Position numbers and translations under genes: made by a program
Part shown: positions 20,393 to 51,799 of the stretch, in pieces
Layout: the number at the start of each line of letters is the position of its first letter
How positions within the stretch are numbered: position 1 is the stretch's first letter
Notes under the pieces: generated by a model
The model's input: only the letters and a program-made list of their open reading frames with translations
The model's database searches: none
Told to the model about the DNA's origin: nothing
NCBI GenBank assembly: GCA_029211065.1
Contig: JARGFK010000016.1
Coordinates: 1-59,018, forward strand
Source: Desulfobacterales bacterium
GTDB taxonomy: Bacteria > Desulfobacterota > Desulfobacteria > Desulfobacterales > JARGFK01
Direction: 5' to 3'
DNA: 59,018 nucleotides

Positions 20393-20448
20393 GTCGTTTA
20401 CTCAAATCATTGCATTTAATAATGAATTCCGAAGAGGAGGTTGTATTG

Positions 20449-21771: not shown

Positions 21772-21805
21772 TTTTTGAACCTTTTGGAAAAAATTTAAAC
21801 GAACT

Positions 21806-23293: not shown

Positions 23294-23319
23294 GTTTTAT
23301 CTCCTGATTAAATCGTAAA

Positions 23320-23351
23320 GACCCGGACCAACACCGGTCTTGGTCCGGGTC
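23320..23351 (-). promoter_or_regulatory. hairpin between tctC and tctA
   Basis: A perfect 12-bp stem (gaccciggaccaa-type arms at 23320-23331 and 23340-23351) with an 8-nt loop and no run of T. This fits an mRNA-stabilising or partial-termination structure that favours the binding-protein message over the permease genes. Confidence 0.5.
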
Positions 23352-23395
23352 CATCATGAAATTACCGAATCCAAAAACCTAAGCTTGAACTTGTT

Positions 23396-24376: not shown

Positions 24377-24439
24377 TACCCCTCCCTACTTTAATGTTGG
24401 TACAGGTATGAATTGAGAACGAATATCTTGCTAAAGCAT

Positions 24440-29632: not shown

Positions 29633-29673
29633 GTTCTTCAGATCCCCTTTCTTTTGTCAGATAGTCCAATTTT

Positions 29674-32942: not shown

Positions 32943-33941
32943 GTGAAAAAACAAGTATTTTTAATTTTACTTACAATCCTGATTGTATTTGTTTCGACAA
33001 CCCAAGGTGATGCCAAACCCTTTTACGATGGCAAGGTGCTTAAAATTATCGTCGCCACCAAACCGGGGGGCGGCTATGACTATTGGGCCCGTCTGGTCGG
33101 CGCCTATATGGAAAAAAATCTACCCGGCAGCACGATCATCGTTAAAAACGTGCCGGGGGCCGGACATGTCATTGGAACCAATGCCCTCTACATGTCAAAA
33201 CCGGACGGATTGACCATCGGCACCTTTAACCGGGCGGTGGGCCTGACCCAGTTGGTGGGGATGAAAGGGGTCAAGTTCGATTTTGCCAACTTCAGCTGGC
33301 TGGGCTCTCCCAATTCAGAAATCTACAGCTTCATGGTGCGTTCCGATATTTATAAAAATCTGGACGACGTTCTGAAGGCGGATAACGTTCGACTGGCGAC
33401 GACCGGGCTGGGGGCCATATCCTATATCACCCCGCTCTTATTTTATCAGATGCTGGGACAGACGAATTATACGGTTGCCACCGGCTATTCCGGGGCCGAA
33501 TCCGAGATGGCGCTTATGCGCAAGGAGATGGACGGCACCTGGGGGTCGTTTGAGAGCCTGAAGGCGGTGGTAGACGGCGGGTTCGGCACCTGCGTCGTGC
33601 TCATCGGCAAAAAACAACCGGCCGGCTTTGAAAAAGTTCCCCTGCTGAAGGAAATTATTAAAGACGAAAAAAACAAAACGGTGGTGGAACTGCTGAATGG
33701 GCTTAACATCGTCGGCAGACCGTTTGCAGCCCCGCCAAAGGTTCCGGCGGATCGTCTGAAGGTGTTGCAGGATGCCTTTTATAAGGCCTGCCATGATCCG
33801 GAATTCATTAAATCAGCGGCAAAATCAGAGAAAGAGGTTGGTTTCGTCGGACCCGATGATGTGGATGTCTGGGCCAAAAGCATGTTAAGCCTGCCGCCGG
33901 ATGTGGTCAAACTGATCAAGAAAGCGTACGGGATCGATTAA
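32943..33941 (+). CDS. tctC: TTT transporter solute-binding protein (TctC/Bug family)
   Basis: A 332-residue periplasmic binding protein with a signal peptide (KQVFLILLTILIVFVSTTQGDA) and the ligand loops ATKPGGGYDYWAR and VKNVPGAGHVIGTNALY. It follows the fused permease gene by 61 bp with an aggagg ribosome site. Here tctC is after tctA, the reverse of the order in operons B and D. It is followed by a strong hairpin that may limit read-through into the TPP genes. Confidence 0.93.
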   Translation: MKKQVFLILLTILIVFVSTTQGDAKPFYDGKVLKIIVATKPGGGYDYWARLVGAYMEKNLPGSTIIVKNVPGAGHVIGTNALYMSKPDGLTIGTFNRAVGLTQLVGMKGVKFDFANFSWLGSPNSEIYSFMVRSDIYKNLDDVLKADNVRLATTGLGAISYITPLLFYQMLGQTNYTVATGYSGAESEMALMRKEMDGTWGSFESLKAVVDGGFGTCVVLIGKKQPAGFEKVPLLKEIIKDEKNKTVVELLNGLNIVGRPFAAPPKVPADRLKVLQDAFYKACHDPEFIKSAAKSEKEVGFVGPDDVDVWAKSMLSLPPDVVKLIKKAYGID

Positions 33942-33997
33942 TTCATTTCCACCGGCAACATAAAATCTGTCTCATGTTGGTGGATGTTCGTAAGCTG

Positions 33998-34030
33998 AAA
34001 GTGAAAAACCGGTTAGCGGTTTTTCACTTT
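33998..34030 (+). terminator. hairpin after tctC of operon C
   Basis: A perfect 14-bp stem (aaagtgaaaaaccg at 33998-34011, complement at 34017-34030) with a 5-nt loop and a short T-rich tail. The next gene is on the same strand 104 bp later with no obvious promoter, so this may be a partial terminator separating high transporter from lower enzyme expression. Confidence 0.6.
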
Positions 34031-34133
34031 TATGCTGTTTATATGGAGGCCAACCACTACGCGACACCCAGTGGGAATGGAAAGAGAGAGATGCTCTGAT
34101 CCAACCGTATACAACTGTGGATAGAAAGGACAA

Positions 34134-35786
34134 ATGATGAAAATGACCGGCGCCGGAGCGGTGGTTGAGGTTCTCAAGGAAGAAGGAATCCAACATGTCT
34201 TTCATCTCCCCGGGTCCCAGATCATCGATATCCTGGATGAGATTTATCAGAGCCCGATCCGTCCCATCATGACCCGCCATGAACAGGGGGCGGCCTTTAT
34301 GGCCGAAGGGTACGCCCGGGCAACCCGGGGGGTGGGTGTATGCATGTCAACGGTGGGACCGGGCGCCGTCAACCTGGTAGCCGGTGTTGCCGCCTCATAC
34401 AAGGCCGGGACGCCTGTCATCGCCATTACCGGCGTGCATGACCAGAAAATGCTGGAAAAAGATTCCTTCCATGAGATCGACCAGGTCGGAGTCTTTAAGC
34501 CCATCACCAAATGGAGCGCATATGTTCCGCAAAGCGAAAAAATCCCGGAGATGATGCGCAAGGCGTTTCGCATCGCCTTAACCGGCCGCAAAGGGCCGGT
34601 TCACCTGGCAATACTGGATAATGCCTCAAAGGGAACTGTCAACTTTCCGCGCAGCCGTCCTTCCCGATATCGTACCCAGACGCCGCCGACCTGTCCGGAA
34701 GAGACCATCGATCAAATGGTCGGCCTGCTCCAAAAGGCGCGGTTTCCCTTTATCCTGGCCGGGGTGGATACGCTCTGGTCGAGAGCCGGCCATGATCTGG
34801 TGGAACTGGCTGAAGCTGCCGGGATTCCGGTGGGCACTTTGAGGGATTCCTGGGGGGCATTTCCGGCTTCACATCCGCTGGGGGTAGGCATGGTGGCCAG
34901 AAGCAGGGGCGAGGCCGGCAACCGGTGCATTCAACAGGCCGATTTGATCCTGGCGCTGGGGGTTAAGTTTGATTTTCAGTCCACCCGCTATTCATATGAT
35001 ATCATACCGCAAAAGGCTAAAATAATTCATGTCACGAACGATCCGGAAGAGGTCGGGCGCATCTATCCGGTTAAAATCGGGGCGGTCTGCGATCCGGGCC
35101 CGGTCATCAAAGCCCTTGTTAAAAAAGTGAAGGCCAGAAATATTCATTTTAATTTAATAGACACCATCAGCGAAATCAAAAAGACGGCCCGAAAAAAGCT
35201 GGATGCCGAAGTTGACCCTAAAGCAGTCCCGCTTCAGCCCCAGGCGATTGTCCGAACGCTCAGAAAGACATTGCCGCCGGACACGATCATTGTCATGGAT
35301 GGCGGCAATTTTGCCAAGCACGTGCGCCGGCAGTTTGATATCGTCGAGATCGACACCTATCACTATCCAGATGATTTCGGCTCGGTCGGGGCCAGCTTTC
35401 CAATGGCCCTGGGGGTCAAGGTCGCCTGTCCGCAGCGGCCGGTGGCCTGCTTGAACGGCGACGGCGCCTTTCTGTTGAACTCCCAGGAGCTGGAAACCGC
35501 CGTACGGGAGAAGATCAACGTGCTCACGGTGGTATTCAACGATTTCGGCTTCGGCAACGTGCGGGCCTATCAGAAAACGAAATACGAATGCCGTTTCATG
35601 TGCGACCACGACAATCCGCCATTTGATAAAATGGCGCGGCTGTTTAAAGCAGATGGTGCGCACGTTGAAAGTCTGGATCAACTGGAACGGGCGGTCAAAA
35701 AAGGATTGCGCAGCAAAAAACCCTATATCATTGACGTGATGATGACACGGGAAGCATTGGAAAAACCGGGATTTGTAGGAGGCTGA
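34134..35786 (+). CDS. thiamine-diphosphate-dependent enzyme (acetolactate synthase-like), 550 aa
   Basis: A full-length three-domain TPP enzyme. The catalytic glutamate is in RHEQGAAFMAEGYARAT; the PP-domain motif is NGDGAFLLNSQELETA...VFNDFGFGN. MGGPGA-type loops (STVGPGAVNLVAG) resemble acetolactate synthase, but the operon (TTT transporter, second TPP enzyme, Fe-S protein, AOR) points to a catabolic 2-oxo-acid decarboxylase that supplies an aldehyde to the AOR. That role is inferred. ATG 34134 follows gaaagga. Confidence 0.9.
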   Translation: MMKMTGAGAVVEVLKEEGIQHVFHLPGSQIIDILDEIYQSPIRPIMTRHEQGAAFMAEGYARATRGVGVCMSTVGPGAVNLVAGVAASYKAGTPVIAITGVHDQKMLEKDSFHEIDQVGVFKPITKWSAYVPQSEKIPEMMRKAFRIALTGRKGPVHLAILDNASKGTVNFPRSRPSRYRTQTPPTCPEETIDQMVGLLQKARFPFILAGVDTLWSRAGHDLVELAEAAGIPVGTLRDSWGAFPASHPLGVGMVARSRGEAGNRCIQQADLILALGVKFDFQSTRYSYDIIPQKAKIIHVTNDPEEVGRIYPVKIGAVCDPGPVIKALVKKVKARNIHFNLIDTISEIKKTARKKLDAEVDPKAVPLQPQAIVRTLRKTLPPDTIIVMDGGNFAKHVRRQFDIVEIDTYHYPDDFGSVGASFPMALGVKVACPQRPVACLNGDGAFLLNSQELETAVREKINVLTVVFNDFGFGNVRAYQKTKYECRFMCDHDNPPFDKMARLFKADGAHVESLDQLERAVKKGLRSKKPYIIDVMMTREALEKPGFVGG

Positions 35787-35842
35787 TTTTTCCTATAATG
35801 TGCGTTATAAAGTTTGGCAGACTCGAAAAAAATTCGAAATTT

Positions 35843-35922
35843 CGTCATGCCTGTGAAGACAGGCATCCAGCCACGCTTTAGCGTGGTGGAAACACTGGAT
35901 TCCCGCATTCGCGGGAATGACG
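35843..35922. repeat. composite palindromic repeat (three hairpins)
   Basis: Three adjacent hairpins: atgcctgt/acaggcat (35847-35866), ccacgc/gcgtgg (35871-35886) and attcccgc/gcgggaat (35899-35918). The outer ends are inverted (cgtcat...atgacg). The last hairpin resembles the attccc-N-gggaat dRS3-type repeats common in proteobacteria. It lies in the gap between the two TPP genes. Confidence 0.65.
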
Positions 35923-35979
35923 CTAAGGGACGAATTAAGACTTTTACGAAAGCATCAATTTTGGAAGGGGAGATGCGTC

Positions 35980-37671
35980 ATGAGCGAAAAAGAGCCTAAA
36001 AACGGAGCCGAGATTATTGTGGATTGCCTCAAGGCCGATGGGGTCAGCCATGTTTTCGGCGTTATCGGCAGCAGTATTCTGGATTTTCTGGACGTCCTTT
36101 ATCGCACCCCGGAGATTACCTATGTCCGCGCCCAGCATGAACAGGGAGCCGCTTTCATGGCCGACGGCTACGCCCGCGCAACCGGAAACCCCGGCGTCTG
36201 CACCGCCACCTGCGGTCCCGGCGTCACCAACATGGTGACCGGCATCGCCGGCGCCAACAACGAATCTTCACCGGTTATTGCGATCCTGGGGGATATCCAT
36301 ACCAAGCATTACGGTAAAGGGCCGGCAAATTTTCACGAAATCGATCAGGAGAATATGTTCCGACCGATTACGAAGATGAGCAAACGGATCGAAAGTGTCG
36401 AACGCATCGAAGAGTTCATGCGCATGGCCTTTCGCACCGCCCGGAGCGGCCGCAAGGGCCCCGTTTACCTGGGGATACCCCGAAACATTCAAAAAGAAAA
36501 AGCCACGAGTATGATGTGGCCGAAGGAAAGCTACCGATCGGAAGCAGTTGTTTTGGGCGATCCCAAAGCCATTGATCAGGCCTGTGATATGCTGCTGGCG
36601 GCAAAATCCGCCGTAATGCTGGTGGGCGGCGGCGCGCGCTGGTCCAGGGCTGAAAAGGAAATATTGAAGCTGGCCGAAGTTTTAGGAATTCCCATTACAG
36701 CCAGTCATAAGGGGTTTGTGACCGAAGACCATCCCTGGTCGGTGGGTGTGGTGGGGATGACCGGAAACCCGGTTGCGATGGATGTGATGCAGGATGCAGA
36801 CGTCGTTCTGGGACTGGGTTGCACATTTAACCAGGTGACGACAGCCAGCTATACCCACCGCGTCATACCGGAAGGGGCCAAAATTATCCAGATCGATATC
36901 GATCCTTTGGAGATGGGCAGAAACTTTCCCATTGCACTGGGCATCGTGGGCGATTTAAAAGCCGTCTTGCAGGAAATGATAAAAAAGATCGACCCCAAAG
37001 CGTCTTCACAAAAAGAAGACCGTTTAAGTAAACTCCTGGCTGCCAAAGAAGCATTTGAGCAGCGGCTGTTGTCCGAAGGGGCTGAATCCGACGCAATGCC
37101 CATTAACCGGCTGCGCCTGATGCGGGATCTCGGCAAGGTTATCGACAAAAATGCCATTGTTTCAGCCGAGTCCGGTTCCACCCACGGCTGGTTTTACTAC
37201 GGCTTTAAGAGCTATACGCCATTGCTGGAGCCTGGAGATTTGAGCTGTATGGGCAGCGGCTGGTGCATGGCCATGGGTGCCCATTTTGCGTTTCCGCAGC
37301 GGCAGGTGGTATCTTTTATCGGGGACGGCGCCTTCATGATGACCCTCAATGAACTGGCGACTGCGGTGGACCATAAGATCCCCATCGTGGTGGTGGTTGA
37401 ACACAACGACGTCTACGGCAACGTGCGCCGCAAGCAGATTGAGCATTTTGACAAACGCTTTGCCGGCAGTGAGCTTTATATTCCGGACCTGGCCAAGGTT
37501 GCCCAGGCCTTTGGCGCACACGGCGAGCGGGTTGAAAAACCGCAGGAAATCATACCGGCCATGGAAAGGGCATTGTCATCAGGCAAACCCTCAGTCTTAG
37601 ACGTTATTGTCGATAAATCATGGGACAGTCTGGAGCCGTCCGTAAAGCTTCGCGTCAAGGATCGGTACTGA
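35980..37671 (+). CDS. thiamine-diphosphate-dependent enzyme (acetolactate synthase-like), 563 aa
   Basis: The second TPP enzyme of operon C, related to the preceding one. It has the catalytic glutamate in AQHEQGAAFMADGYARAT, the ATCGPGVTNMVTG loop and the C-terminal IGDGAFMMTLNELATA...VVEHNDVYGN motif. ATG 35980 has a ggggag ribosome site; the frame extends to 35917 through the palindromic repeat, which I reject. The pair could be two distinct decarboxylases or a heteromer. It is followed by the Fe-S and AOR genes. Confidence 0.9.
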   Translation: MSEKEPKNGAEIIVDCLKADGVSHVFGVIGSSILDFLDVLYRTPEITYVRAQHEQGAAFMADGYARATGNPGVCTATCGPGVTNMVTGIAGANNESSPVIAILGDIHTKHYGKGPANFHEIDQENMFRPITKMSKRIESVERIEEFMRMAFRTARSGRKGPVYLGIPRNIQKEKATSMMWPKESYRSEAVVLGDPKAIDQACDMLLAAKSAVMLVGGGARWSRAEKEILKLAEVLGIPITASHKGFVTEDHPWSVGVVGMTGNPVAMDVMQDADVVLGLGCTFNQVTTASYTHRVIPEGAKIIQIDIDPLEMGRNFPIALGIVGDLKAVLQEMIKKIDPKASSQKEDRLSKLLAAKEAFEQRLLSEGAESDAMPINRLRLMRDLGKVIDKNAIVSAESGSTHGWFYYGFKSYTPLLEPGDLSCMGSGWCMAMGAHFAFPQRQVVSFIGDGAFMMTLNELATAVDHKIPIVVVVEHNDVYGNVRRKQIEHFDKRFAGSELYIPDLAKVAQAFGAHGERVEKPQEIIPAMERALSSGKPSVLDVIVDKSWDSLEPSVKLRVKDRY

Positions 37672-38010
37672 TTGGATCACCTCCAAAAGAGCGGGTGATC
37701 ATATAGGATTCAAGGGTTCCGGTGAAATGAAAATACGCCGTTAAGCTGGAAGGCCGGGAAGCTGGAAAAAAGAAAGAAACTGAGACAGGGGTCGGCTTGT
37801 CTGCAATAATGAAGGCATGTCAGGACTTCAGAGAGATATCGGGGAGGTTGAAAGAATGCAGAAAGCCTCGAATCATTAAAAAAACCTTGAACCCCTGAAC
37901 CCTGAATCCCTTTCTCCCAATACGTCTACCGAGGCTGGCTGCTGCGGAGCGTGGATTAATTGGGGAAGAATCTAAATAAACCTATCGCTACAAGACAGGG
38001 AGAGTGCGTT
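37672..38010. repeat. 339-bp gap with fold-back repeat
   Basis: Non-coding. It contains a fold-back with arms ggattcaagggttc (37706-37719) and gaaccctgaatcc (37897-37909), one base different, and a small gatcacc/gggtgatc hairpin right after the TPP stop (37675-37700). No promoter was recognised ahead of the Fe-S gene. Confidence 0.5.
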
Positions 38011-38655
38011 ATGAGCAATGAGCAAAAGCAACAGGTAATAGGGGAGAAGAACGGGTGGGGGATTGAAAAAATACCATCCCCCCAGGGAGTCGCTTATATT
38101 TCCGCACGCTGGGATCTTTGCGTGGGGTGCGGCGCCTGTGAAGTGGCCTGCTCCATGTTTCACCATGGTGTCGTCAACCGGGAACTCTCCCGGATCAGGA
38201 TTTACCGCTATCTGCTGCCGCTGCCTAAATCCGTCCAGAATGTCTGTTCCCAGTGTCCTGAAAAAGAAAGGGAATGTCAGAAGGCCTGTCCCGAGGACCC
38301 GCCGGTCATTCATTATGACCCCGAGCGCTTCCATATGGTCGTCGATGAAGACCGCTGCCTGGGATCCGGCTGCAGCCAGTGTCGGGATGCCTGCCCGGCC
38401 GATGTGCCGCGGTTTTATCCGCCGGAACAGGATGTGTCCATGGTATGCGACCTGTGTGAAAAAGACGGCCGGCGGCGGCCGCAGTGCGTCGAGATTTGTC
38501 CCACCCAGGCGCTGGAGTTTGTTTCACCCAAAATTCCGCACCATCTGGAACGGATTCATCCGGATGTGAAAGCGGCCAGCCTGGCCAATCGGCTCTATCC
38601 GCTGCCAAAGGACCGTGTCATTCGAATGCCTGAAGAAATCTGGGGAGGCAAATAA
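38011..38655 (+). CDS. ferredoxin-like Fe-S protein, AOR electron-transfer partner
   Basis: A 214-residue cytoplasmic Fe-S protein of the kind that carries four [4Fe-4S] clusters. Cysteine groups: CVGCGACEVAC near residue 34, CSQCPEKERECQKAC, CLGSGCSQCRDAC, and CDLCEKDGRRRPQCVEIC, with the arrangement of DmsB/AorA-type subunits. ATG 38011 has an agggaga ribosome site. Only one base separates its stop from the AOR start, so the two proteins are made together and probably form a complex that passes aldehyde-derived electrons to ferredoxin or another acceptor. Confidence 0.92.
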   Translation: MSNEQKQQVIGEKNGWGIEKIPSPQGVAYISARWDLCVGCGACEVACSMFHHGVVNRELSRIRIYRYLLPLPKSVQNVCSQCPEKERECQKACPEDPPVIHYDPERFHMVVDEDRCLGSGCSQCRDACPADVPRFYPPEQDVSMVCDLCEKDGRRRPQCVEICPTQALEFVSPKIPHHLERIHPDVKAASLANRLYPLPKDRVIRMPEEIWGGK

Positions 38656-38656
38656 A

Positions 38657-40450
38657 ATGGGAGAAAAGAAATTTAAACTGCTGGAAGTGGATTTGACCAA
38701 TGAAAAAACGCGAACGGTGGATGTCACCGAAGAGATGCGCCGGTTTGTGGGCGGGCGCTCACTGGGCGCCAAACTTTTGTGGGACCGGATTCCACCCAAG
38801 GCGGACCCCCTGAGCACGGAGAATGTCCTTTATTTCGGAATCGGACCCATGACGGGATTATTGGGGTCGGTTACCAATGTCAGCGCCAAGTCGCCGTTGA
38901 CGCATTTGAGGGGCCAGTCCAATATGAATGGCCATTTCGGTCTGGAACTCATCTATGCCGGTTACAATGCCGGTGTCCTTTTTACCGGTAAAGCTTCCAA
39001 ACCGGTATATCTGTATGTGAAAGACGACCATGTCGAAATTCGGGACGCATCCCATCTGTCAGGAAAATCCGGCCTTGAAACCCAGTACCAGCTTACGGAA
39101 GAACTGAAAGAAGAAATCGACGACCAGAACATCCGGATTGCGGCCATCGGTCCGGCCGGTGAGAATATGGTGCGAAATGCGGATATCTGTCACGATTTTT
39201 ATCACCATGCCGCCCGGCTGGGGATGGGGACCGTGATGGGATCCAAGAAGCTGAAAGCCGTCGCCGTAAAAGGGACCCGGGCGCCGGGGTATGCTCACCC
39301 GGAGAACGTTCTTGAGATCTTGAAAAAATGGCTCCACGCCGGCCGGTTGTATCGGATTCAGAATCGGCGTTGGGGGCACACCCAGTCCATGTCCGGCCGC
39401 TATTATAAAACGATCGAAGGTATTAAGAATAAGCAGAAGGGCTGGGATGAAATGTGCGACAACTTTAATCCCGTTCTGCTGGAGCAGCGCTACAAGATCT
39501 GGGGGGATGCCTGTCACGGTTGTCCGGTGGCCTGTAAAGTGCCGTATTTTATGATGGGGCCGCCCCTGGGACCATTTGCCGGCGAGCTGCGTCATGACAA
39601 TGCCGGCGGGTGGAGCGCCAATGTCATGATCCCCGGCTATGAACTCCAGGGGTATCTGTGCTCCTATGTGGATTACCTGGGATTGGACGGCGAGGATGTC
39701 TCCGGCGTCGTTGCCTGGATGATGGAATGCTATGAAAAAGGGCTGGTCACCAAAGAAGATCTGGGCGGGATTGACCTGACCTGGGGAAATGTGGAAGCCA
39801 TCTGTGCGCTGTTAAAGAAGATTGCCCATCGCGAGGGTATCGGCGATGCCCTGGCCGACGGCCTTAAATTTGCACCGGCCAAGATCGGGAAGGGAACTGA
39901 AAAATACGCCATTACCGGCAAAGGTGTTGCAATTACGTCCTATGAACCCCGGGGCAGCATGAAGGACGCACTGGATCTGGCCGGAACGGCCGTGGGTGAG
40001 ATCCACGGTTCCAGGGGGGCGCCGGAACGGGTCATGTTTGATTCTTTGACCGGCTGTTCCTTCTGGCGCAAGACCATCAAGGATATTTACGGGAGTATTG
40101 CCGACTGGGCCATCCAAGGACTCCATGCCACCTGCGACTGGCAGCTGAGCCAGGAGGACTGGCGGCTGCTGGAGCTGCGGGGGGCCACCATGGAAAGGTG
40201 TTATTCCATTCGCGAAGGCCATTATATCCCGGAGCGGGACGATATCATGCCGGAACGGTTTTTCCAGGAGACCATCTACAATAAATACAATGAACCCAAA
40301 AAGCTCGACAAGAAAGAGTTTTTTGAGAAGCGAAAAGGGCTTTATCATTCCTACGGTCTGCAGGATGACGGCACGCCGTCTCCGGAGTTTCTGGAACAGC
40401 TCGGGCTGGGGTTTGCCATTCCGGAAATGGAGGAAGCGTTAAAGAAATAG
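38657..40450 (+). CDS. aldehyde:ferredoxin oxidoreductase family protein (AOR 1)
   Basis: A 597-residue tungsto/molybdo-bispterin enzyme of the AOR family, which oxidises aldehydes to acids (or reduces acids) with ferredoxin. The [4Fe-4S] ligands are C286, C289, C293 (C-x2-C-x3-C in DACHGCPVACKV) and C467 in DSLTGCSFW. The N-terminal VGGRSLGAKLLWDRIPP and the GPAGENMVRNADI and GMGTVMGSKKLKAVAVKGT segments are family hallmarks. A ggggagg ribosome site precedes ATG 38657. BamB of class II benzoyl-CoA reductase also belongs to this superfamily, but the TPP-enzyme context favours aldehyde oxidation. Confidence 0.93.
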   Translation: MGEKKFKLLEVDLTNEKTRTVDVTEEMRRFVGGRSLGAKLLWDRIPPKADPLSTENVLYFGIGPMTGLLGSVTNVSAKSPLTHLRGQSNMNGHFGLELIYAGYNAGVLFTGKASKPVYLYVKDDHVEIRDASHLSGKSGLETQYQLTEELKEEIDDQNIRIAAIGPAGENMVRNADICHDFYHHAARLGMGTVMGSKKLKAVAVKGTRAPGYAHPENVLEILKKWLHAGRLYRIQNRRWGHTQSMSGRYYKTIEGIKNKQKGWDEMCDNFNPVLLEQRYKIWGDACHGCPVACKVPYFMMGPPLGPFAGELRHDNAGGWSANVMIPGYELQGYLCSYVDYLGLDGEDVSGVVAWMMECYEKGLVTKEDLGGIDLTWGNVEAICALLKKIAHREGIGDALADGLKFAPAKIGKGTEKYAITGKGVAITSYEPRGSMKDALDLAGTAVGEIHGSRGAPERVMFDSLTGCSFWRKTIKDIYGSIADWAIQGLHATCDWQLSQEDWRLLELRGATMERCYSIREGHYIPERDDIMPERFFQETIYNKYNEPKKLDKKEFFEKRKGLYHSYGLQDDGTPSPEFLEQLGLGFAIPEMEEALKK

Positions 40451-40499
40451 GACCTGTATACCGCTTTCAATAATAAAATTCCGAAACAATGATTTGCGA

Positions 40500-40560
40500 T
40501 ATAAGCGGTTGTAGAAAAAAACATTGGGATAACGGAATGTTTTTTTTGACAACCGCTATA
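40500..40560. terminator. bidirectional terminator between operons C and D
   Basis: A long stem: tataagcggttgt (40500-40512) with its near-complement (40549-40560), continuing into paired A/T tracts (aaaaaaacatt...aatgtttttttt). It lies exactly between the convergent AOR 1 (+) and isocitrate-lyase-like (-) genes and has T-runs on both strands. Confidence 0.8.
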
Positions 40561-40564
40561 ATTG

Positions 40565-41464
40565 TTATTTTTTTCCCCACTTTTTCTTTTCAACCGTATC
40601 TTCCTCCACGGCATAATGCGCTTCCAGGCCGCACAGATCTTCGATTTCTTGACGCGTTTGAATCCATTCGTCCGGCGTCAGCCCGCTGTAATCCCCGGTA
40701 CGTTTGATTTCCGTCAATGCCTGTTTCAGATAATAGCAGGAAATGCCGATATGGATCTGGGCATCGATGCAGCCCATGTAACCCATCGCCTGGAGCTGCT
40801 TCAGGTTGTACAGCGGTCGGCCGTCGCGGTTGCCGCGACTCTGGACCCAGATCAGTGGGAGTTTGGATTTTTTGGGGGCGGCTACCGCCTCCTTGTGATT
40901 ACGCGGAAAAACTAGGCCCAGGTCTGCGCCGACGGCAGCCGCCTTGTTGATGCGCTTGATCGCTTTGCCCAGACCTTCGAACCGGCAGGTATCGGAACGG
41001 GCGATAATGATAAAATTTTTGTCGATGGCGTCGCGGGCGCGGCAGGCCAGTTTAATTTTATCGACGAATTCTTTGACCGAAACCGTATGGGCCACATATT
41101 TGTGATAATGCGCGCGTTTGGGGTAAAGCTGATCCTCGATATGGATTCCGGCGACGCCTGCAGCGATAAACTCCTTGACCGTCCGCATGGCGTGAAGGGG
41201 CTCGCCGAAGCCGGCTCCCGCGTCGCAGACCAGAGGAATCGTGCAAGCATTGGCGATGCGCTTGGCAAATTCGACCTGCTCGGTCATGGTGAGCAAGGGT
41301 TCGGTCACGGTCAACGAGCTGCCGGTGGCATACCCGCCGGTATAGACGGCTTTGAAACCGATTTGTTCCGCAATCCGCCCGCCCATGGGATCGATGACAG
41401 CAGGCATGTATATGAATTTTCCTTTCTTCAGAATCGTTCGCAAGCGCGATGCAGGAATGGGCAT
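40565..41464 (-). CDS. isocitrate lyase/PEP mutase superfamily protein
   Basis: A 299-residue alpha/beta-barrel protein, last gene of operon D. The superfamily fold is clear from AVYTGGYATGSS, CDAGAGFGEP and GIHIEDQLYPKRAHY. Two usual lyase features differ: the metal loop DxDxGFG is D81-A-G83-A-GFG, and the KRCGH catalytic loop is K116-R-A-H-Y, so the catalytic cysteine is absent. It is therefore unlikely to be a standard isocitrate or methylisocitrate lyase; C-C hydrolase, decarboxylase or phosphonomutase-like chemistry on a 2-oxo or hydroxy acid is more likely. Confidence 0.87.
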   Translation of the reverse strand: MPIPASRLRTILKKGKFIYMPAVIDPMGGRIAEQIGFKAVYTGGYATGSSLTVTEPLLTMTEQVEFAKRIANACTIPLVCDAGAGFGEPLHAMRTVKEFIAAGVAGIHIEDQLYPKRAHYHKYVAHTVSVKEFVDKIKLACRARDAIDKNFIIIARSDTCRFEGLGKAIKRINKAAAVGADLGLVFPRNHKEAVAAPKKSKLPLIWVQSRGNRDGRPLYNLKQLQAMGYMGCIDAQIHIGISCYYLKQALTEIKRTGDYSGLTPDEWIQTRQEIEDLCGLEAHYAVEEDTVEKKKWGKK

Positions 41465-41516
41465 TTTTTTCCTTCCAATCGTTTCATGTATTTGTAATGG
41501 CTGCTAAACGTAAGGT

Positions 41517-42131
41517 TTATGTATTCAGCGTTGGCTCAAAAAACAGCTCTTCGGGGGACAGCGCCCGCTCCAAAAGTCCCTGATCACCGGCGTAGTCGAT
41601 AAAGCGCGTCAGGTTGGCCCGGTTCTTTTTAAAGCCGTTGGGCCAGGGATCGGTACCCAGCAGGCGGCGTTCTTCTTCGAACAGATGCCGGCCCCAGGCC
41701 ATAAGCGACCAGTTGGGGTCGGCATAATATTCCCTGCAAATTCGTTTGGCGGATTCAAAAGCCTCCATCATGTCCATTGCGGCTTCCGGGTATTTTTCCA
41801 AAATTTCATCCTTGAACGCAAGAATGTGCATGATGGGGTAAAACCCGTTTTTTTGAAAATATTTCAGCTCTTCCCGTTTCGGGTTCGGGAATAATCGTTT
41901 GATTTGATCGCTGCCACCCGAGACTTCTTTGGGCGGGTGGGGCATGATAAGGGCATCGAATTCACCTTTCCGAAGCATGCGCCCATGGCGATCGGCGCCG
42001 TCTTTTAAGGGTACCGACTGACCCACCTGCAACACCGCTAAATCAAAATCTTTAAGCTGAACGGACCCGTCAAAAAAGGGGATATGACGGTCATAGTGTG
42101 ACAGGGCCAGGGTTAGTTTTGGTTTGGACAT
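41517..42131 (-). CDS. 4,5-dihydroxyphthalate decarboxylase-like protein, internally shortened
   Basis: A 204-residue protein. The N-terminus (KLTLALSHYDRHIPFFDGSVQLKDFDL) and C-terminal half (RLFPNPKREELKYFQKNGFYPIMHI...AFESAKR...GTDPWPNGFKKNRANLTRFIDYAGDQGLLERALSPEELF) match the Pht5 family, which is usually about 320-330 residues and has a two-lobed binding-protein fold. About 110 middle residues are missing: residue about 45 passes directly into DALIMPHPPKEV. The frame is intact and flanked by normal genes, so it may be a working small variant or a decaying gene. ATG 42131 has an aagga ribosome site. Confidence 0.72.
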   Translation of the reverse strand: MSKPKLTLALSHYDRHIPFFDGSVQLKDFDLAVLQVGQSVPLKDGADRHGRMLRKGEFDALIMPHPPKEVSGGSDQIKRLFPNPKREELKYFQKNGFYPIMHILAFKDEILEKYPEAAMDMMEAFESAKRICREYYADPNWSLMAWGRHLFEEERRLLGTDPWPNGFKKNRANLTRFIDYAGDQGLLERALSPEELFFEPTLNT

Positions 42132-42232
42132 CACTGTTTTTCCTTAAGAAATATCAAGTAGTATTTTTAAAATAAAATCCCCCCAACACCCTTTTCCAAA
42201 CGTGAAAAATGAAGGATTACCGGAAGTGGTCA

Positions 42233-42796
42233 TTATTTTCGTATAGAAACCATTACCTCGTGCATCCGCTTTCCTAAATCCCCTGCTTCTTTGAAGGCGC
42301 GGGCATCTTTATGGATATCCCCGGGGGCCCGGGCGTAACCGGTGACATACCCGGCCACAAGAATCTGCTGGTCGAGAAACACGTCGTTGATGATGCGGAC
42401 CGCGCTGATGCCGCCGCGGCGGTTGGCGACGGCGACGCTTCCCCCCACTTTGTTTTTCAGCCGCTTGTGATGCCACAGGCTAAAGGTGCGATCCAGAAAT
42501 ACCTGGGCATTGCCGCTGATGCTGTGCCCCATGTGCACGGGGCTGCCGATGACGATGCCGTCGGCTTGCAGCAGTCCGGCATAGATGGATTGCATGTCGT
42601 CATGGATGTGGCATTCACCCGTTTCCGCACAGCGCCAGCAGGCATCGCAGGGCGAAATGTCGTGATCCGCGATTTTGACAAATTCGGTGGCGGCCCCGTT
42701 ATCGACGGCCGCGGCCAGAACCGCACGAACAAGAATGTCCGAATTGCTTTCCATGCGGGGACTGCAGCCGATGCCGATCACCTTGAATGGTTTCAT
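42233..42796 (-). CDS. iron-sulfur flavoprotein / NADPH-dependent FMN reductase-like
   Basis: A 187-residue flavodoxin-fold protein. The FMN loop is GIGCSPRMESNSD; the compact cysteine motif C50-x2-C53-x2-C56-x5-C62 in CDACWRCAETGEC matches Isf-type iron-sulfur flavoproteins, which bind FMN and a [4Fe-4S] cluster. GSPVHMGHSISGNAQVFLDR is the second flavin-contact segment. The start ATG overlaps the TGA of the TPP enzyme (ATGA at 42793-42796), so the two are translationally coupled. A likely role is electron transfer or reduction of an intermediate of the operon D pathway. Confidence 0.87.
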   Translation of the reverse strand: MKPFKVIGIGCSPRMESNSDILVRAVLAAAVDNGAATEFVKIADHDISPCDACWRCAETGECHIHDDMQSIYAGLLQADGIVIGSPVHMGHSISGNAQVFLDRTFSLWHHKRLKNKVGGSVAVANRRGGISAVRIINDVFLDQQILVAGYVTGYARAPGDIHKDARAFKEAGDLGKRMHEVMVSIRK

Positions 42797-44454
42797 TGCT
42801 CGATCCAGACATCCAGAACCGATGGTTTTCCGGAATTCAGCGCCTTTTTCAAAGCCGTTTTAATCTGGGAGGGCTTTTTCACGGTATAACCGGCAACCCC
42901 GAATGATTCTGCCATTTGGGCCAGGTCGGGAACGGGGTTATCAATGTTCGATCCGATAAAAAGGTTTTTCTCCAGGGCTTTTCCTTTAAAACGAATGGCG
43001 CCGTCTTTTACCGCCTTATACTGTCGGTTGTTGCACACGATTGTGATAACAGGAATCTTATACCGGGCTGCGGTCCACAACGCCGGGTTGGTCATGATAA
43101 AGCCGCCGTCGCCCACAAAGGCGATGACCTGCCGGCGGGGGAGGGCCAGCTTGACTCCCAGGGCCGCCGGCAGTCCCCAGCCCAGATAGCCTGCGGGGGA
43201 CCGAAAGTATGTGCCCGGGTGTTTAAATTGATAGTGTTTTAAGAGGGGGCGTGAGGAGCGGATGGTGTCGTCGACGATAATGGCATCCGGATCTGCTGCG
43301 TCCTGGATCTCCCGCACAAGCTGTGCTACCCGGATGGGGGTTTTGCCCCAGATGGATTCAACTTCCTTTACCCGGATGGCTTCCCTTTTTGCCCAGTCCG
43401 TCTTCATCTGATTGAAACGTTCTCGGAAAACAGCGATCCTTTGAGCTGACGCCGAAGCCTTTATTTGACTGATCAGGATTGCAAGACCCTCCTTTGCGTC
43501 GGAAAGGATAGGGGCTTCCACAGGGTAGAGTTTTCCGATGACAGCCGGATTTGAATGCATATGAACAGTTTTGATTTTCTGTAAGACCGCATCGTTTTCT
43601 GAGTAGGCTGTTTGAACAAAAATTTCACACCCCACGCCGAGGATGAGGTCAGCAGTTTTGATGGTTGCGGATTGGGCCTCAAAACCTCCCCGGTAAAGGG
43701 GATGGTCGAGGGGAAAGTTCAAGTAGGCCATAGACTGGCGTCCTTCCGCCAGGACAGGGATTCCCAGTAATTCGGCCAATTCAACAGCCTGGGGCAACGC
43801 ATCGGTTTGTGCAATTTCATTTCCCGCGATCATGACCGGTTTTTTGGCGGCAAGGAGCAGCTTGATCGCCTTTTTAATGTCTTCAGGGTTGGGACACAGC
43901 CGGGGTTGAGAGTCAAACCGCTGGGAAGGGGGGATTTTAGCATTCATTTTCAAAGCCAGAAAATCCTCGGGTATGGATAAAAAAACCGGACCCGTGGGAG
44001 GCGTGGTGGTTATTTTAAATGCCCGGGTAATGTCATCGGCAATGTTTTCCGGCCTTAACACCTGCCAGCTCCATTTCGTAAATTGTCGCGTCATGGCGCA
44101 TATGTCATCAACTTCGGAAAAAACCCCCCGGCCGAGAATGCGACTGTCCTTATTCGCAATGGTCAGGACCATGGGAATGCCGTCGATATGGGCGCCGCAA
44201 AGCCCGCCGATGGCGTTGGAAAGTCCCAGGGCGGTGTGGACATTGACAAATCCAACGCCGCCGCCTGCGCGGGCGTAACCGTCTGCCATGGCGACTGCGA
44301 CACTTTCATGCAGCGTCAGTATATATTCGATCTCGGGCGTTTCCACCAGCGCGTCTAAAATGGCCACCTCGGTAGTTCCCGGATTTCCAAAAATATATTT
44401 GACACCTTCATTTTTCAGAGATGCCAATAAGATTTCAGCACCGGTTTTTTGCAT
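42793..44454 (-). CDS. thiamine-diphosphate-dependent enzyme (benzoylformate decarboxylase-like), 553 aa
   Basis: A three-domain TPP enzyme with the N-terminal IFGNPGTTEVAILDAL start, the catalytic glutamate in TLHESVAVAMADGYARAG, a VNVHTALGLSNAIG loop, and the PP motif VGDGGFIMTNPALWTA...VCNNRQYKA. The GNPGTTE start and CNNRxYxAVK tail are typical of benzoylformate-decarboxylase-like members rather than acetolactate synthases. ATG 44454 follows aaggaatt; the longer frame overlaps the AOR gene and is rejected. It lies 20 bp after AOR 2, so it may make the aldehyde that AOR oxidises. Confidence 0.9.
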   Translation of the reverse strand: MQKTGAEILLASLKNEGVKYIFGNPGTTEVAILDALVETPEIEYILTLHESVAVAMADGYARAGGGVGFVNVHTALGLSNAIGGLCGAHIDGIPMVLTIANKDSRILGRGVFSEVDDICAMTRQFTKWSWQVLRPENIADDITRAFKITTTPPTGPVFLSIPEDFLALKMNAKIPPSQRFDSQPRLCPNPEDIKKAIKLLLAAKKPVMIAGNEIAQTDALPQAVELAELLGIPVLAEGRQSMAYLNFPLDHPLYRGGFEAQSATIKTADLILGVGCEIFVQTAYSENDAVLQKIKTVHMHSNPAVIGKLYPVEAPILSDAKEGLAILISQIKASASAQRIAVFRERFNQMKTDWAKREAIRVKEVESIWGKTPIRVAQLVREIQDAADPDAIIVDDTIRSSRPLLKHYQFKHPGTYFRSPAGYLGWGLPAALGVKLALPRRQVIAFVGDGGFIMTNPALWTAARYKIPVITIVCNNRQYKAVKDGAIRFKGKALEKNLFIGSNIDNPVPDLAQMAESFGVAGYTVKKPSQIKTALKKALNSGKPSVLDVWIEQ

Positions 44455-44474
44455 TTTATAATTCCTTCCACTGG

Positions 44475-46307
44475 TCAGATATCGATGTTTAATTTGTCCA
44501 TCAACCTTTTTTGGGGAATGCCGGTATCCATCTCCCACCCCAAAGCAGCATAAGCGTCATCTTTGAGCTTTTCCATTGGAACCATGCTTCCCTTGTTGGG
44601 TCCTTCCGGCAGGGGTTCTTTCAGCAGTCGCTCCGGAAGTGTGTCATCTTTTCGCCTTAACCCTTCACGCGTGTTGAAAAGACGCTCCACTGTCAGAATT
44701 CGCCAACCGATCCGGCTTAATTCCTGGTTGTCGATGTCGACGCCTGTCAGGGCGTGGATCAGGTCGGGATATAAGGGTACGGTAATTTTACGCGGAAAGC
44801 AGCAGAGCACCAGCGAATCTCCGATAATGCGATCGATGGCTGCTTTTTTGATCTCCACTCCTTTGCCCGTTATGTTTTTATGGGTGCCGGCAGCAGCTTC
44901 CGAACGGGCCGGCAGGCCAAAGGCATGGTGGTCGCCTCCTTTCGGATTAATGGCAAACGCCAGTGCCTGGCCGTAAAAGCCCCTGGGTTCATAGCCGCCC
45001 ATTTCAAGCCCCTTGCAATGCATGGCAAATGCGGCTGACCCGGCAATCTGTTCCGCAAGGCGTCTGGTGCCTTCTCCCCACATGTATCCGGCGCCGTCAC
45101 GCATGACAATCTTTTCTAAAGTTCGAATTGCAGCATCATCATCACCAAAGTCAAGGGAAATGCCGTCTGTGTGAGTGGTGTTGACGAGGCCCTTTTCAAA
45201 GCATTCCATCAGGAAGCTGATGGTAAGGCCTGCGGAGATGGTGTCGACACCGTTTTCATCGCATATCTGACCGGCGGCAACAATCGCGTCGAATTTATCG
45301 ATGCCGCAGTTGGATCCGAATGCATACATGGTTTCATATTCGGGACCGTCGGCCTGGGCGCCTTTATAGGGGCCATCATTGATCCGGATAAAATGCGAGC
45401 AAGGATTGGGGCAAAAAGGCCCGCAGGCGATATTTTTTCGCGGCCATTTATCCTTGTTAAGGGTCGGGGCGATATCGGCCAGTTTTTTTTCTTCAAATGA
45501 TCCGCTTTGCCAGTTCCGGGTGGGTAGCATGCCGTTCCGATTCATCCAGGGCATATCCTCGCCGGTACCAAAGGAATGGCGGCGTTGGGCCCATTCCCGA
45601 TTGTCGTCCAGGCCCTTTCTGGCTTTTTGTAGAAGCGTTTTAAATTTTACAGAATCGATCGGTGGGATTTTCCGGCTTCCGGAAATAATGATCCCTTTCA
45701 ATTTCTTGGCGCCCATGACACATCCGGCCCCGCCGCGGCCAAAGGCCCGATAGGTTTTACCGTCATTCATGACGGACGCATATTTAATAAGTTTTTCACC
45801 CCCCGGGCCGATGGCGGCGGTAGCGGCTGTGCGGTTTCCGCTTTCCTTCAGCATGATATTCTGAGATGCGAGTGTTTTTTCTCCCCAGAGGTGCATTGCA
45901 CTTATGAATTCAACCTGATCATCAACAATATTGAGATAAACGGGATCCTGCGATTGTCCCTTTATCATGATGGCCATATACCCGGCCTTGCGAATGGTGT
46001 GTCCCAATTTGCCGCTGCTGACCGAGTAAAGATAAAGATGGGTAAGCGGAGATTTGGTGGTGAGCACGACTTTCGGGCTAAAGGGCGTCGGCAGCCCTTG
46101 TGAAATCCCCACAGTGAAAATTAATGGATTTTCCGGAGACAGCGGATCCACTCCGGCCGCAGTATGTTGATACAACAGGTAAGCGCCAAGGCCCCGGCCC
46201 CCCAGGTAATCCGTTAAAACGTTTTCCGGGATAGGGTGGATTTGAAATTTCCTTCTGGTTAAATCAATTGTGAGAATATTGCCGGCGGGAAATAGCGGAT
46301 CGGGCAT
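44475..46307 (-). CDS. aldehyde:ferredoxin oxidoreductase family protein (AOR 2)
   Basis: A 610-residue AOR family enzyme. The N-terminal YLGGRGLGAYLLYQH, the GPGGEKLIKYASVMNDG and AGCVMGAKKLKGIIISGS segments, and the GYEPRGFYGQALAFA segment are typical. The cluster ligands are C295, C299, C303: C-x3-C-x3-C (CGPFCPNPC), one residue longer than the standard C-x2-C-x3-C of AOR 1; the fourth cysteine is in DSLVLCCF. Unlike AOR 1 it has no multi-cluster Fe-S gene next to it. It is expressed with a TPP enzyme, an Fe-S flavoprotein, OCD and aldolase. Confidence 0.93.
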   Translation of the reverse strand: MPDPLFPAGNILTIDLTRRKFQIHPIPENVLTDYLGGRGLGAYLLYQHTAAGVDPLSPENPLIFTVGISQGLPTPFSPKVVLTTKSPLTHLYLYSVSSGKLGHTIRKAGYMAIMIKGQSQDPVYLNIVDDQVEFISAMHLWGEKTLASQNIMLKESGNRTAATAAIGPGGEKLIKYASVMNDGKTYRAFGRGGAGCVMGAKKLKGIIISGSRKIPPIDSVKFKTLLQKARKGLDDNREWAQRRHSFGTGEDMPWMNRNGMLPTRNWQSGSFEEKKLADIAPTLNKDKWPRKNIACGPFCPNPCSHFIRINDGPYKGAQADGPEYETMYAFGSNCGIDKFDAIVAAGQICDENGVDTISAGLTISFLMECFEKGLVNTTHTDGISLDFGDDDAAIRTLEKIVMRDGAGYMWGEGTRRLAEQIAGSAAFAMHCKGLEMGGYEPRGFYGQALAFAINPKGGDHHAFGLPARSEAAAGTHKNITGKGVEIKKAAIDRIIGDSLVLCCFPRKITVPLYPDLIHALTGVDIDNQELSRIGWRILTVERLFNTREGLRRKDDTLPERLLKEPLPEGPNKGSMVPMEKLKDDAYAALGWEMDTGIPQKRLMDKLNIDI

Positions 46308-46418: not shown

Positions 46419-47087
46419 TCAAGGCAATTTGCTTAAATAATAATCCCAAACCTTGTTGATGATGCTTCCTTTTAGCAGGGCAGCCTGACCTTCTTCCTGT
46501 TCTTCGTCTGAAAGGGGTTCCGGATCCCCGGCATGATATGCTTCCAGGAGTCGCTGGGCGTTTTTTTCGAAATAAATACTCAAAAAGAAGAGCGCCTTCA
46601 CACTTTCGGCAACGACCACAGATCCATGCCCGCGGATGATTACCACCTTGGCCTTTCCCAGCGCCATTGCCAGGCTGTCACCACGGGAGGCGGTGTTGAC
46701 ATGCCGGGCATCTTCGTAGATGGGGATGCCGTCGGCGAACAGGGTGCCTTGAAAAATGGCCGGGAAAATCGGCTGCCGGGCAATGCTGAGGCTGATCACC
46801 GCCGGGGAGTGCAGGTGAGCGACGGCATGGATGTCTTTTCTGGCCTGATAAATGGATGAATGTATGTGGGTTTCGGACGGCAGCCGGACACCCGCCTGGA
46901 CTGCAGTGGCGTCCATATTTGCTTCTACGATATCGTCGGGCCCAACTTCCAGCCGGCTTTTTCCGTGAGAATTAATCAGAAATAAATCTTCATTGACACG
47001 GCAACTGACATGACCGCTGAAATCGATCAGGTGATTTGCCTCCAGCAGGCGACAGCAGCGTGCGACTTGGGATTTTAACTCATTCAT
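46419..47087 (-). CDS. class II aldolase/adducin family protein (OCD-linked)
   Basis: A 222-residue zinc aldolase-fold protein, paralogue of the one at 20449. It has SETHIHSSIYQARKD, metal histidines in AHLHSP, and IIRGHGSVVVAESV. In the paralogue MHHGAIFSAG reads IFQGTLFADG here, so the substrate pocket has changed. It is preceded (300 bp) by the OCD gene in the same order as in operon A, and followed by AOR 2. Confidence 0.87.
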   Translation of the reverse strand: MNELKSQVARCCRLLEANHLIDFSGHVSCRVNEDLFLINSHGKSRLEVGPDDIVEANMDATAVQAGVRLPSETHIHSSIYQARKDIHAVAHLHSPAVISLSIARQPIFPAIFQGTLFADGIPIYEDARHVNTASRGDSLAMALGKAKVVIIRGHGSVVVAESVKALFFLSIYFEKNAQRLLEAYHAGDPEPLSDEEQEEGQAALLKGSIINKVWDYYLSKLP

Positions 47088-48646: not shown

Positions 48647-49114
48647 TTAAAGCGTTGTTCTGAGGCCAACGTAAAACACCAGGTAAACTGCCAGGACAAA
48701 TGAAGCGGCAATAATCGTACTGATTTTCCAGGAACGTTTGGCAAAAAACCTGAGAAACGCCAAAAGAAAAATCGGTATCGCTATCATAAAGCCCAAAAAA
48801 TTGATTCCCAAGGCCAGGACAATGATCCATGCCCAGACTTCAAGGATTTTGCGGCCTTCACCCGGCAGCGGCGCCTTCTGGTGTTTAAGCGGCTTTTTAG
48901 CGGAGGCTTCAGGGTCTGCATCCTGCTTTTTGCCTGCACGTTTAGACTTTACGATTGAATTGGCAAGATGAATAACCGAAAAGGCCAAACCCGGGATGGA
49001 GAGGGTTAATGGAACGATTCTCGGCCGTTTGGCATACCCCCAGCCCAGGATAACAAACATGGCGAAGATGATTACCAGTAATGTCGCAAAGCCAATTTCT
49101 TCAGCTTTTTTCAT
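48647..49114 (-). CDS. tctB: tripartite tricarboxylate transporter, small membrane subunit (TctB)
   Basis: A 155-residue membrane protein with hydrophobic segments near 8-25, 33-50, 90-112 and 120-150, and a charged loop (KSKRAGKKQDADPEASAKK) between the halves. A GTG-started extension to 49159 overlaps tctA, but ATG 49114 has a ggag ribosome site with a suitable spacer, so I choose it. It lies 25 bp after tctA. Confidence 0.85.
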   Translation of the reverse strand: MKKAEEIGFATLLVIIFAMFVILGWGYAKRPRIVPLTLSIPGLAFSVIHLANSIVKSKRAGKKQDADPEASAKKPLKHQKAPLPGEGRKILEVWAWIIVLALGINFLGFMIAIPIFLLAFLRFFAKRSWKISTIIAASFVLAVYLVFYVGLRTTL

Positions 49115-49139
49115 CGGAAACTCCACTTCCTGTTGATGT

Positions 49140-51677: not shown

Positions 51678-51799
51678 TATCTCAAGTCTCCTTTCTTTTT
51701 GACCTGTAAACAAGATTACCATGGAAATGGTTTGGGTTGACCCTGATGGGGGGCAACGTATATGGCTTCTTGCTGAGACGAGTTTTCGCAGCAAGTTTT

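Follow-up and report, generated by a model that had tools for sequence, protein, structure and literature searches.

In the degradation of phenylalanine, phenylacetaldehyde is made by phenylpyruvate decarboxylase, an enzyme that depends on thiamine diphosphate (ThDP, or TPP). Phenylacetaldehyde derived from this amino acid was proposed to be oxidised in Aromatoleum aromaticum by a tungsten-type oxidoreductase (WOR), AOR (PMC13328260). Eubacterium limosum, which uses tungsten, has served as a production host for a WOR (PMC13328260). According to the same classification of WORs, only 5 of 92 clades include an enzyme of defined physiological role, and class II WORs are composed of a large subunit, WorL, and a four-cluster iron–sulfur (Fe-S) subunit, WorS (PMC13328260). 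In P. furiosus AOR, which represents class I, the residues Thr243, Glu311, Tyr312, Glu313, Tyr427 and His448 were named (PMC12096430). Here, we analysed contig JARGFK010000016.1 of a Desulfobacterales bacterium, a stretch of 59,018 bases referred to below as the window, which belongs to a draft genome of 4.94 Mb in 269 contigs. It carries two gene modules, C and D, in which genes of ThDP enzymes are neighbours of genes of WORs.

The reading that we favour, with slightly better than an even chance of being right, is that each module encodes a two-step oxidation independent of coenzyme A (CoA), in which a ThDP enzyme would make an aldehyde and a WOR would oxidise it with ferredoxin. The ThDP enzyme (TPP1 or TPP2 in C, TPP3 in D) would cleave a C–C bond beside a carbonyl and release an aldehyde, most likely by the decarboxylation of a 2-oxo acid. 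A WOR encoded next to it (in C, AOR1 together with its Fe-S subunit; in D, AOR2 by itself) would then convert the aldehyde to the acid and transfer two electrons to ferredoxin. Import of the acid or of its precursor would fall to a tripartite tricarboxylate transporter (TTT), or to another organic-acid transporter in relatives. This reading builds on the gene content, the gene order, the conservation of the pairing in C, and the catalytic and cluster residues (with an altered second shell in AOR1); the aldehyde link and the direction of the modules are what we infer.

The genes of module C lie on the forward strand in the order TctA–TctB fusion, TctC, TPP1 (34134–35786), TPP2 (35917–37671), four-cluster Fe-S protein (37960–38655) and AOR1 (38615–40450). 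Module D is on the reverse strand and reads TctC, TctA, TctB, a protein of the ornithine cyclodeaminase (OCD) family, class II aldolase, AOR2 (44475–46307), TPP3 (42793–44538), FMN reductase, a half-length protein resembling 4,5-dihydroxyphthalate decarboxylase, and a lyase of the ICL/PEP-mutase type. As TctA, TctB and TctC are all present in both modules, each has the components of a TTT, with the transporter genes beyond the span 34134–46307. The open reading frames and domains thus bear out the claim of an earlier note that a TPP-plus-AOR module occurs twice, each time with a TTT, as well as the gene content it gave for operon C. For operon D, it correctly named TctC-A-B, AOR and a TPP gene, but omitted the OCD, aldolase, FMN reductase, half-length protein and lyase genes. 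The likely true starts inferred from the sequence are the ATG codons at 38011 (Fe-S protein), 38657 (AOR1) and 44454 (TPP3), which place AOR1 1 base past the Fe-S stop and TPP3 20 bp past the AOR2 stop. The FMN reductase and TPP3 genes overlap by 4 bases; the gaps between TPP1 and TPP2 (at least 130 bp) and between TPP2 and the Fe-S gene (339 bp) are not tight. The two modules are clearly not recent duplicates, since AOR1 and AOR2 are 28.6% identical, TPP1 and TPP3 32.1% identical, and their branches differ. With TPP1/TPP2 at 35.9% and TPP2/TPP3 at 31.5%, the AORs and TPP enzymes differ as clearly as had been noted earlier, and the suggestion that the modules handle different substrates is probable, given the different WOR clades and TPP branches.

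Both AOR1, which is WorL-like, and AOR2 have AFOR_N and AFOR_C domains above the Pfam cut-offs. The four cluster cysteines are arranged as CX2CX3C plus one in AOR1, and as CX3CX3C plus one in AOR2; the loss of the cluster in AOR1, in which Pfam AFOR_C is matched in two pieces, was ruled out, as all four cysteines are present. AOR2, a single large subunit, retained the equivalents of all six second-shell residues compared, including the four (Thr243, Glu313, Tyr427 and His448) that mark aldehyde-oxidising WORs (AOR sensu stricto). In AOR1, Tyr427 and His448 are retained, whereas Thr243 is replaced by His and Glu311-Tyr312-Glu313 (EYE) by Arg-His-Asp (RHD), so that AOR1 departs from the four-residue pattern at Glu313, which is Asp, and at Thr243. 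This pattern is common to all five full-length proteins (that of the window and four orthologues) and to an incomplete copy at the L033 locus. A single clade (local support 0.998) unites AOR1 with its orthologues and lies apart from the other aligned WORs of the genome (13 of 14 own-genome copies, the frame-split C89 copy being omitted). In enzymes of the class II benzoyl-CoA reductase/YdhV type, such as BamB, an extra Cys is a ligand of the metal; within the GELRHDN stretch, the part of AOR1 inspected for it, no cysteine was seen.

The polyferredoxin-type, WorS-like Fe-S protein contains four groups of four cysteines, 17 cysteines in all, and its best phmmer matches are the Fe-S subunits of WOR5 and A. 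aromaticum AOR; AOR1 therefore fits the class II layout. In support of that, its gene directly precedes AOR1, and the pair is flanked by TPP2 and the opposite-strand lyase gene, with no FAD subunit. AOR2, without an adjoining Fe-S or FAD gene, fits class I by its gene arrangement. A fold search with the AOR1 model had WOR5 as its top match; as the core of the model is of low quality (block means of 33–44 at about residues 251–330), such matches served to identify the family only. Tungsten is the presumed metal of AOR1 and AOR2, and ferredoxin their presumed electron carrier. Sulfonate oxidation by AOR1 in the manner of ASOR may occur but finds no support in Tyr427, which is His in ASOR and is kept here; Thr243, on the other hand, is lost in both, as has been described for the sulfonate-oxidising WOR5 (PMC12096430).

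The queries with which relatives were sought were AOR1, AOR2, TPP2, TPP3 and TPP4 (a fourth ThDP gene of the window). Per genome, the number of best candidates scored was 8 or 9 for the order sample, 3 for the phylum samples of 395 genomes and 6 for the sample of 223 genomes, so that homologues can be missed; the samples overlap, many contigs stop beside the gene of interest, and the family-level sample consisted of this genome alone. Beyond the window, five AOR1 orthologues were found (62–71% identity). A TPP gene lies directly upstream of the Fe-S–AOR1 pair in three of these five, these three being all those that have a complete pair and allow the preceding gene to be read. The order in L030 (CP070673) is TPP2–FeS–AOR1, with identities of 72, 72 and 71%, respectively. 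In L032 (JAHEIB010000013), TctAB, TctC, a class II aldolase and a small secreted protein are followed by TPP1–FeS–AOR1 (67, 72 and 66%). The order of the window, TPP1–TPP2–FeS–AOR1, recurs in L071 of genome G439, with TPP1 as a 208-aa fragment at the contig end (67%), TPP2 at 68%, the Fe-S protein at 66% and AOR1 at 62%. As to the remaining two, the L031 contig begins inside the Fe-S gene, so that the upstream gene is not readable, and L033 (Nitrospinaceae, CP070799) has AOR1 residues 254–609 alone, with neither an Fe-S nor a TPP gene. No TPP gene was seen at the distant AOR1 relatives L046 and L077 (37–42%), nor was an adjoining one detected by tblastn at the weakest matches, L034–L036 (27–35%). 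Organic-acid transporters lie near several relatives: a TTT in L032 and L070, and a DctM TRAP gene in L030 and L046. By gene order and identity, the TPP–FeS–AOR1 enzyme set of module C is a conserved unit.

The pairing in module D was found conserved to a lesser extent. Two samples that overlap, one of 146 and one of 395 genomes, yielded three AOR2 relatives (40–49% identity). In one of them, L070 of G439, a TPP4-type gene (39% identical to TPP4 and 27% to TPP3) is followed by the AOR2 relative (47%), whose match begins 76 bp past the TPP stop, and then by TctC and TctA; the contig also bears a homologue of the 4,5-dihydroxyphthalate-decarboxylase-like protein. At L047 and L072, no TPP gene was seen, with AOR2 near the contig end in each. 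L070 is the sole paired relative of the three, so that a single further instance, with another TPP subtype, is what supports the D pairing. A search of the order sample with TPP3 at 1e-110 gave no match in the other 145 genomes. As a separate observation, the third cluster cysteine is replaced by Gly in the AOR2 relatives at L070 7955–9760 and L047 3289–5082, a change also reported in P. furiosus WOR4 (PMC12096430).

The catalytic Glu and the GDG motif are kept in TPP1, TPP2 and TPP3. TPP1, with the Pfam TPP_enzyme N, M and C domains, and TPP2 were placed in the acetolactate-synthase/HKA-synthase branch by domain, fold, profile and residue comparison. In acetohydroxyacid synthase (AHAS), an Arg (in FDDR) and a Trp form the acceptor site, which binds the second 2-oxo acid. 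Both are absent from TPP1, TPP2 and four orthologues, and both are present in the genome's own, separate AHAS (TIGR00118, 839 bits, cut-off 538), which rules out that TPP1 or TPP2 is a biosynthetic AHAS. The predicted TPP2 model (pLDDT 83.8), compared by Foldseek and VIA-align, is nearest to BbmA, a 'ThDP-dependent HKA synthase' (Z 44.9), and then to cyclohexane-1,2-dione hydrolase (CDH; Z 42.3), tied with benzaldehyde lyase and AHAS. The best matches of a profile of TPP1/TPP2 relatives are BbmA, AHAS, glyoxylate carboligase and CDH. As this branch holds carboligases, lyases and decarboxylases, similarity does not decide the reaction of TPP1 and TPP2.

TPP3 is on the benzoylformate-decarboxylase/PRK08327 side. 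Its nearest solved structures are benzoylformate decarboxylase, but its score against that NCBIfam family is 320 bits, under the cut-off of 493, and its best NCBIfam match, PRK08327, is also under the cut-off (335 against 456 bits). In the alignments with benzoylformate decarboxylase, the equivalent of its His70 is kept, and both His281 and Ser26 are replaced by Thr. Phenylglyoxylate, which the earlier note had named among the 2-oxo acids to be assayed, is thus not specially indicated, as only TPP3 comes near that enzyme. On this evidence, decarboxylation is better supported for D than for C, and conservation of the pairing better supported for C than for D. The route proposed in the same note (uptake of a carboxylate, conversion to a 2-oxo acid, decarboxylation to an aldehyde and oxidation to the acid) is favoured by the TPP–WOR pair in C (order conserved on three contigs at 62–72% identity), by the cofactor and cluster residues, and by the transporters, but not by the best matches of TPP1 and TPP2. 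Its oxidation step is plausible, and its decarboxylation step may instead be another ThDP reaction.

One of these other reactions is that of CDH-like C–C lyases: TPP1 and TPP2 would cleave a 1,2-dione or acyloin to a semialdehyde without loss of CO2, and AOR1 would oxidise it to a dicarboxylate. The product of CDH, 6-oxohexanoate, is a negatively charged aldehyde, and the Arg-His-Asp of the AOR1 clade, together with the His in place of Thr243, would suit a negatively charged substrate. CDH is also among the best matches of both the TPP2 model and the TPP1/TPP2 profile (E 2e-92). However, the fold ranking says little, as all 50 structures listed for the model fall between Z 41.0 and 44.9, and the similarity is one of fold alone: catalysis by CDH involves histidines and Asn484. 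We regard a CDH-like lyase as unlikely, though still to be reckoned with.

A number of observations weigh against the two-step reading. The genome has 14 AOR genes and 9 TPP genes above the family cut-off, and 12 of the 14 AORs have no above-cut-off TPP gene in the surrounding 9–18 kb; the two that do are both in the window, and one of the 12, on C43, is accompanied at a distance of about 3 kb by a weak TPP-like frame of 188 aa. None of the five other TPP loci of the genome has an AOR in the 5.5–16 kb examined. In other genomes, an AOR was present at 1 of the 15 loci found with the TPP2 and TPP4 queries. TPP2 gave seven loci, with an AOR in L071 and none in L045 (76%) or in L048, L049, L050, L073 and L074 (43–47%); TPP4, searched in 223 genomes, gave eight loci in two genomes (46–74%), none with an AOR. 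Several of these AOR-less loci accompany substrate-binding proteins and UbiD genes. The search for the module in other genomes that had been suggested thus turned out well from the side of AOR1, whose orthologues mostly have a TPP gene, but not from the side of the TPP genes, where the lack of conserved pairing that the earlier note had named as contrary evidence was found in part. Moreover, TPP3 itself is without a paired relative, a terminator-like hairpin parts the C transporter from TPP1, Thr243, Glu311 and Tyr312 are lost in AOR1, and the closest solved relatives of TPP1 and TPP2 are carboligases (BbmA, AHAS and glyoxylate carboligase) and the C–C lyase CDH, not 2-oxo-acid decarboxylases. 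Random placement of the genes in 4.94 Mb brought at least two AORs to a distance of 5 kb or less from a TPP gene in 2.5% of the simulations, a figure that is weak by itself, because both cases lie in one 12-kb stretch; conservation elsewhere is better evidence for the pairing.

These counts would suit an explanation in which the neighbours share no step: the window would be a catabolic island of ThDP enzymes, WORs, UbiDs and transporters, in which the WORs act elsewhere, e.g., on a sulfonate, as WOR5/ASOR does, or on a detoxification substrate. The density of varied catabolic genes in the window, the WOR5 fold match of the AOR1 model and the loss of Thr243 as in WOR5 point the same way as the 12 unpaired WORs. 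On the other hand, the direct TPP–FeS–AOR1 adjacency recurs at 62–72% identity where the other genes of the contigs differ, and we hold this explanation to be as improbable as that of a CDH-like lyase. Even more doubtful is that the modules run in reverse, reduced ferredoxin driving the conversion of an acid to an aldehyde by a WOR, and a ThDP carboligase joining the aldehyde to a 2-oxo acid: WORs can reduce acids (PMC12096430) and the nearest solved relatives of TPP1 and TPP2 are carboligases, but these two lack the Arg and Trp of the AHAS acceptor site, and elsewhere the same TPP types adjoin aldehyde dehydrogenases or a hydroxylase of the xanthine oxidase (XO) family, which are usually oxidative.

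The latter loci deserve description. In L045, the TPP2 orthologue (76%) is followed, in place of a WOR, by the three subunits (FAD, 2Fe-2S and Mo) of a hydroxylase of the XO family. The large subunit is nearest to 4-hydroxybenzoyl-CoA reductase alpha, below the cut-off (520 against 995 bits), and this hydroxylase may not oxidise an aldehyde, a further point against the two-step reading. An XO-family large subunit is also on the stretch in two of the five distant TPP2-like loci, adjoining in L049 and about 6 kb away in L074. On a plasmid of Terrarubrum flagellatum, TPP2-like and TPP4-like genes (37% each) accompany two aldehyde dehydrogenases and an ICL/PEP-mutase-family gene. L045 and this plasmid may represent cases in which the redox partner of an aldehyde-making enzyme was swapped. 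A plasmid of an aerobe (L086, NZ_CP091853.1, 1676–15139) bears leuCD-like genes, an ICL/PEP-mutase gene, two ThDP enzymes, two short-chain dehydrogenases/reductases and two aldehyde dehydrogenases, and is a possible aerobic counterpart. The plasmid TPP2 relatives of Ensifer and Thalassospira adjoin hisD and sugar-type ABC transporter genes, and a plasmid TPP3 relative of Deinococcus has neither an AOR nor an aldehyde dehydrogenase adjoining; all plasmid relatives are below 40% identity among the matches listed.

The boldest reading, which is speculative and in our judgement also unlikely, is that TPP1/TPP2–FeS–AOR1 would form an anaerobic module devoted to a new class of substrates: by ThDP-dependent C–C cleavage, a negatively charged aldehyde would arise from an acidic 1,2-dione, acyloin or 2-oxo dicarboxylate, a new WOR clade, that with RHD for EYE, would oxidise it, and the electrons would be kept as reduced ferredoxin without CoA, while relatives would swap the WOR for a Mo hydroxylase or NAD-dependent aldehyde dehydrogenases. 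Independent of the substrate, the conserved ThDP partner is a testable clue to the substrate of one WOR clade. The two-step module would add a CoA-independent, ferredoxin-reducing alternative to the 2-oxo-acid:ferredoxin oxidoreductases in anaerobic carboxylate degradation, and the C pairing in distant relatives suggests a little-described way of making and oxidising aldehydes that saves high-energy electrons.

As to the remaining genes of module C, the TctA–TctB fusion is at 30884–32881 (Pfam TctA 416 bits, TctB 31 bits) and the TctC solute-binding protein at 32943–33941 (Pfam TctC 51 bits). TctC and TPP1 are 192 bp apart, and between them lies the hairpin (33996–34032), which consists of a perfect 16-bp stem and a 5-base loop (folding z −5.97 against shuffles). 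No second such hairpin pair was seen in the window. The region shows no overall enrichment of terminator-like sites (34, compared with 27.4, sd 5.7, in shuffles), so that the hairpin stands out by its stem length alone. It may be a terminator that ends the transporter transcript, in which case the C transporter would be a separate transcription unit; the grouping of operon C with its transporter is thus uncertain. A repeat family was considered and rejected: besides its own arms, the hairpin has a single near-match in the window (17621), and its 11-base core has no exact match in 104 loci (a partial genome).

In module D, the transporter genes are TctC (50655–51794; Pfam TctC 66 bits), TctA (49140–50633; Pfam TctA 414 bits) and TctB (48647–49159; Pfam TctB 51 bits). 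They are followed by the OCD/mu-crystallin family protein (47388–48476), identified by domain and NCBIfam searches, and the class II aldolase/adducin family protein (46419–47087). The best NCBIfam match of both class II aldolases of the window is PhtC, 3,4-dihydroxyphthalate decarboxylase, under the cut-off (99.7 bits against 200 for that of module D). Past TPP3 are the FMN reductase-like flavoprotein (42233–42796; Pfam FMN_red 87 bits), the half-length protein (41517–42134) and, at the end of the operon, the lyase (40565–41464; Pfam PEP_mutase 117 bits; prpB-like, below the cut-off). The half-length protein had no match in Pfam or NCBIfam, and its likeness to 4,5-dihydroxyphthalate decarboxylase is confined to the C-terminal part (phmmer, 9jp7 residues 190–344, E 3.7e-20).

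Elsewhere in the window, six UbiD-family genes, a UbiX gene, two class III CoA-transferases and a succinyl-CoA-ligase-like pair are located at 2246–25894, where decarboxylase genes are thus densely packed. The region looks like an island for the degradation of carboxylated, perhaps aromatic, compounds, which describes the setting and does not assign a substrate. OCD, class II aldolase, TctA and TctC genes occur together a third time at 19295–25894, with a UbiD gene in place of TPP and AOR. TPP4 (27854–29632) stands with a DUF1932 dehydrogenase-like gene (the two spanning 27854–30366), and the pair is conserved, but has no AOR with it, in L097 (74 and 54%). The genes at 25894–26367 and 26705–27133 encode small secreted proteins that are similar to each other, one being lipoprotein-like; the first has no Pfam match, and a relative of it sits between the aldolase and TPP1 in L032. 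On other contigs of the genome, two further AOR genes (C101 and C89; L009, L024, L004, L012) are frame-split or contain a stop, being either broken genes or assembly errors, and another AOR (C28, L061, 7949–15816) is clustered with TctA, TctC and a class II aldolase, without a TPP gene.

No description of a ThDP–WOR operon was found in open PubMed Central text (subscription papers and supplements lie outside that search), nor was anything relevant found there on BbmA, CDH or HKA synthase. The words thiamine, TPP, decarboxylase and aldolase are absent from the main text of the 2026 WOR classification (PMC13328260). Compared with described class II WORs (WorLS; P. furiosus ASOR/WOR5 and C. bescii GOR), AOR1 is similar in its adjacent four-cluster Fe-S subunit, in WOR5 being the best fold and Fe-S match, and in the loss of Thr243 (PMC13328260, PMC12096430). 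It differs in the RHD for EYE of its clade and in Tyr427, for which WOR5 has His (PMC12096430), and it is encoded after ThDP enzymes. AOR2 resembles P. furiosus AOR as a lone large subunit with all six residue equivalents, but has CX3CX3C instead of CX2CX3C; to plasmid-borne AORs, it is at best 36% identical among the matches listed. For the WOR operon of A. aromaticum, aorABCDE, no ThDP gene is named in passages that describe it (PMC6365974), whereas ThDP and WOR genes are adjacent in the present modules. Benzoylformate decarboxylase provides the best solved matches of TPP3 and shares its His70 equivalent, but TPP3 has Thr at the equivalents of His281 and Ser26 and scores under the NCBIfam cut-off. 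CDH shares the ThDP fold and a high structural similarity with TPP2, at an identity of 27%; however, CDH carries out its own oxidation with NAD, whereas in the present modules a WOR follows.

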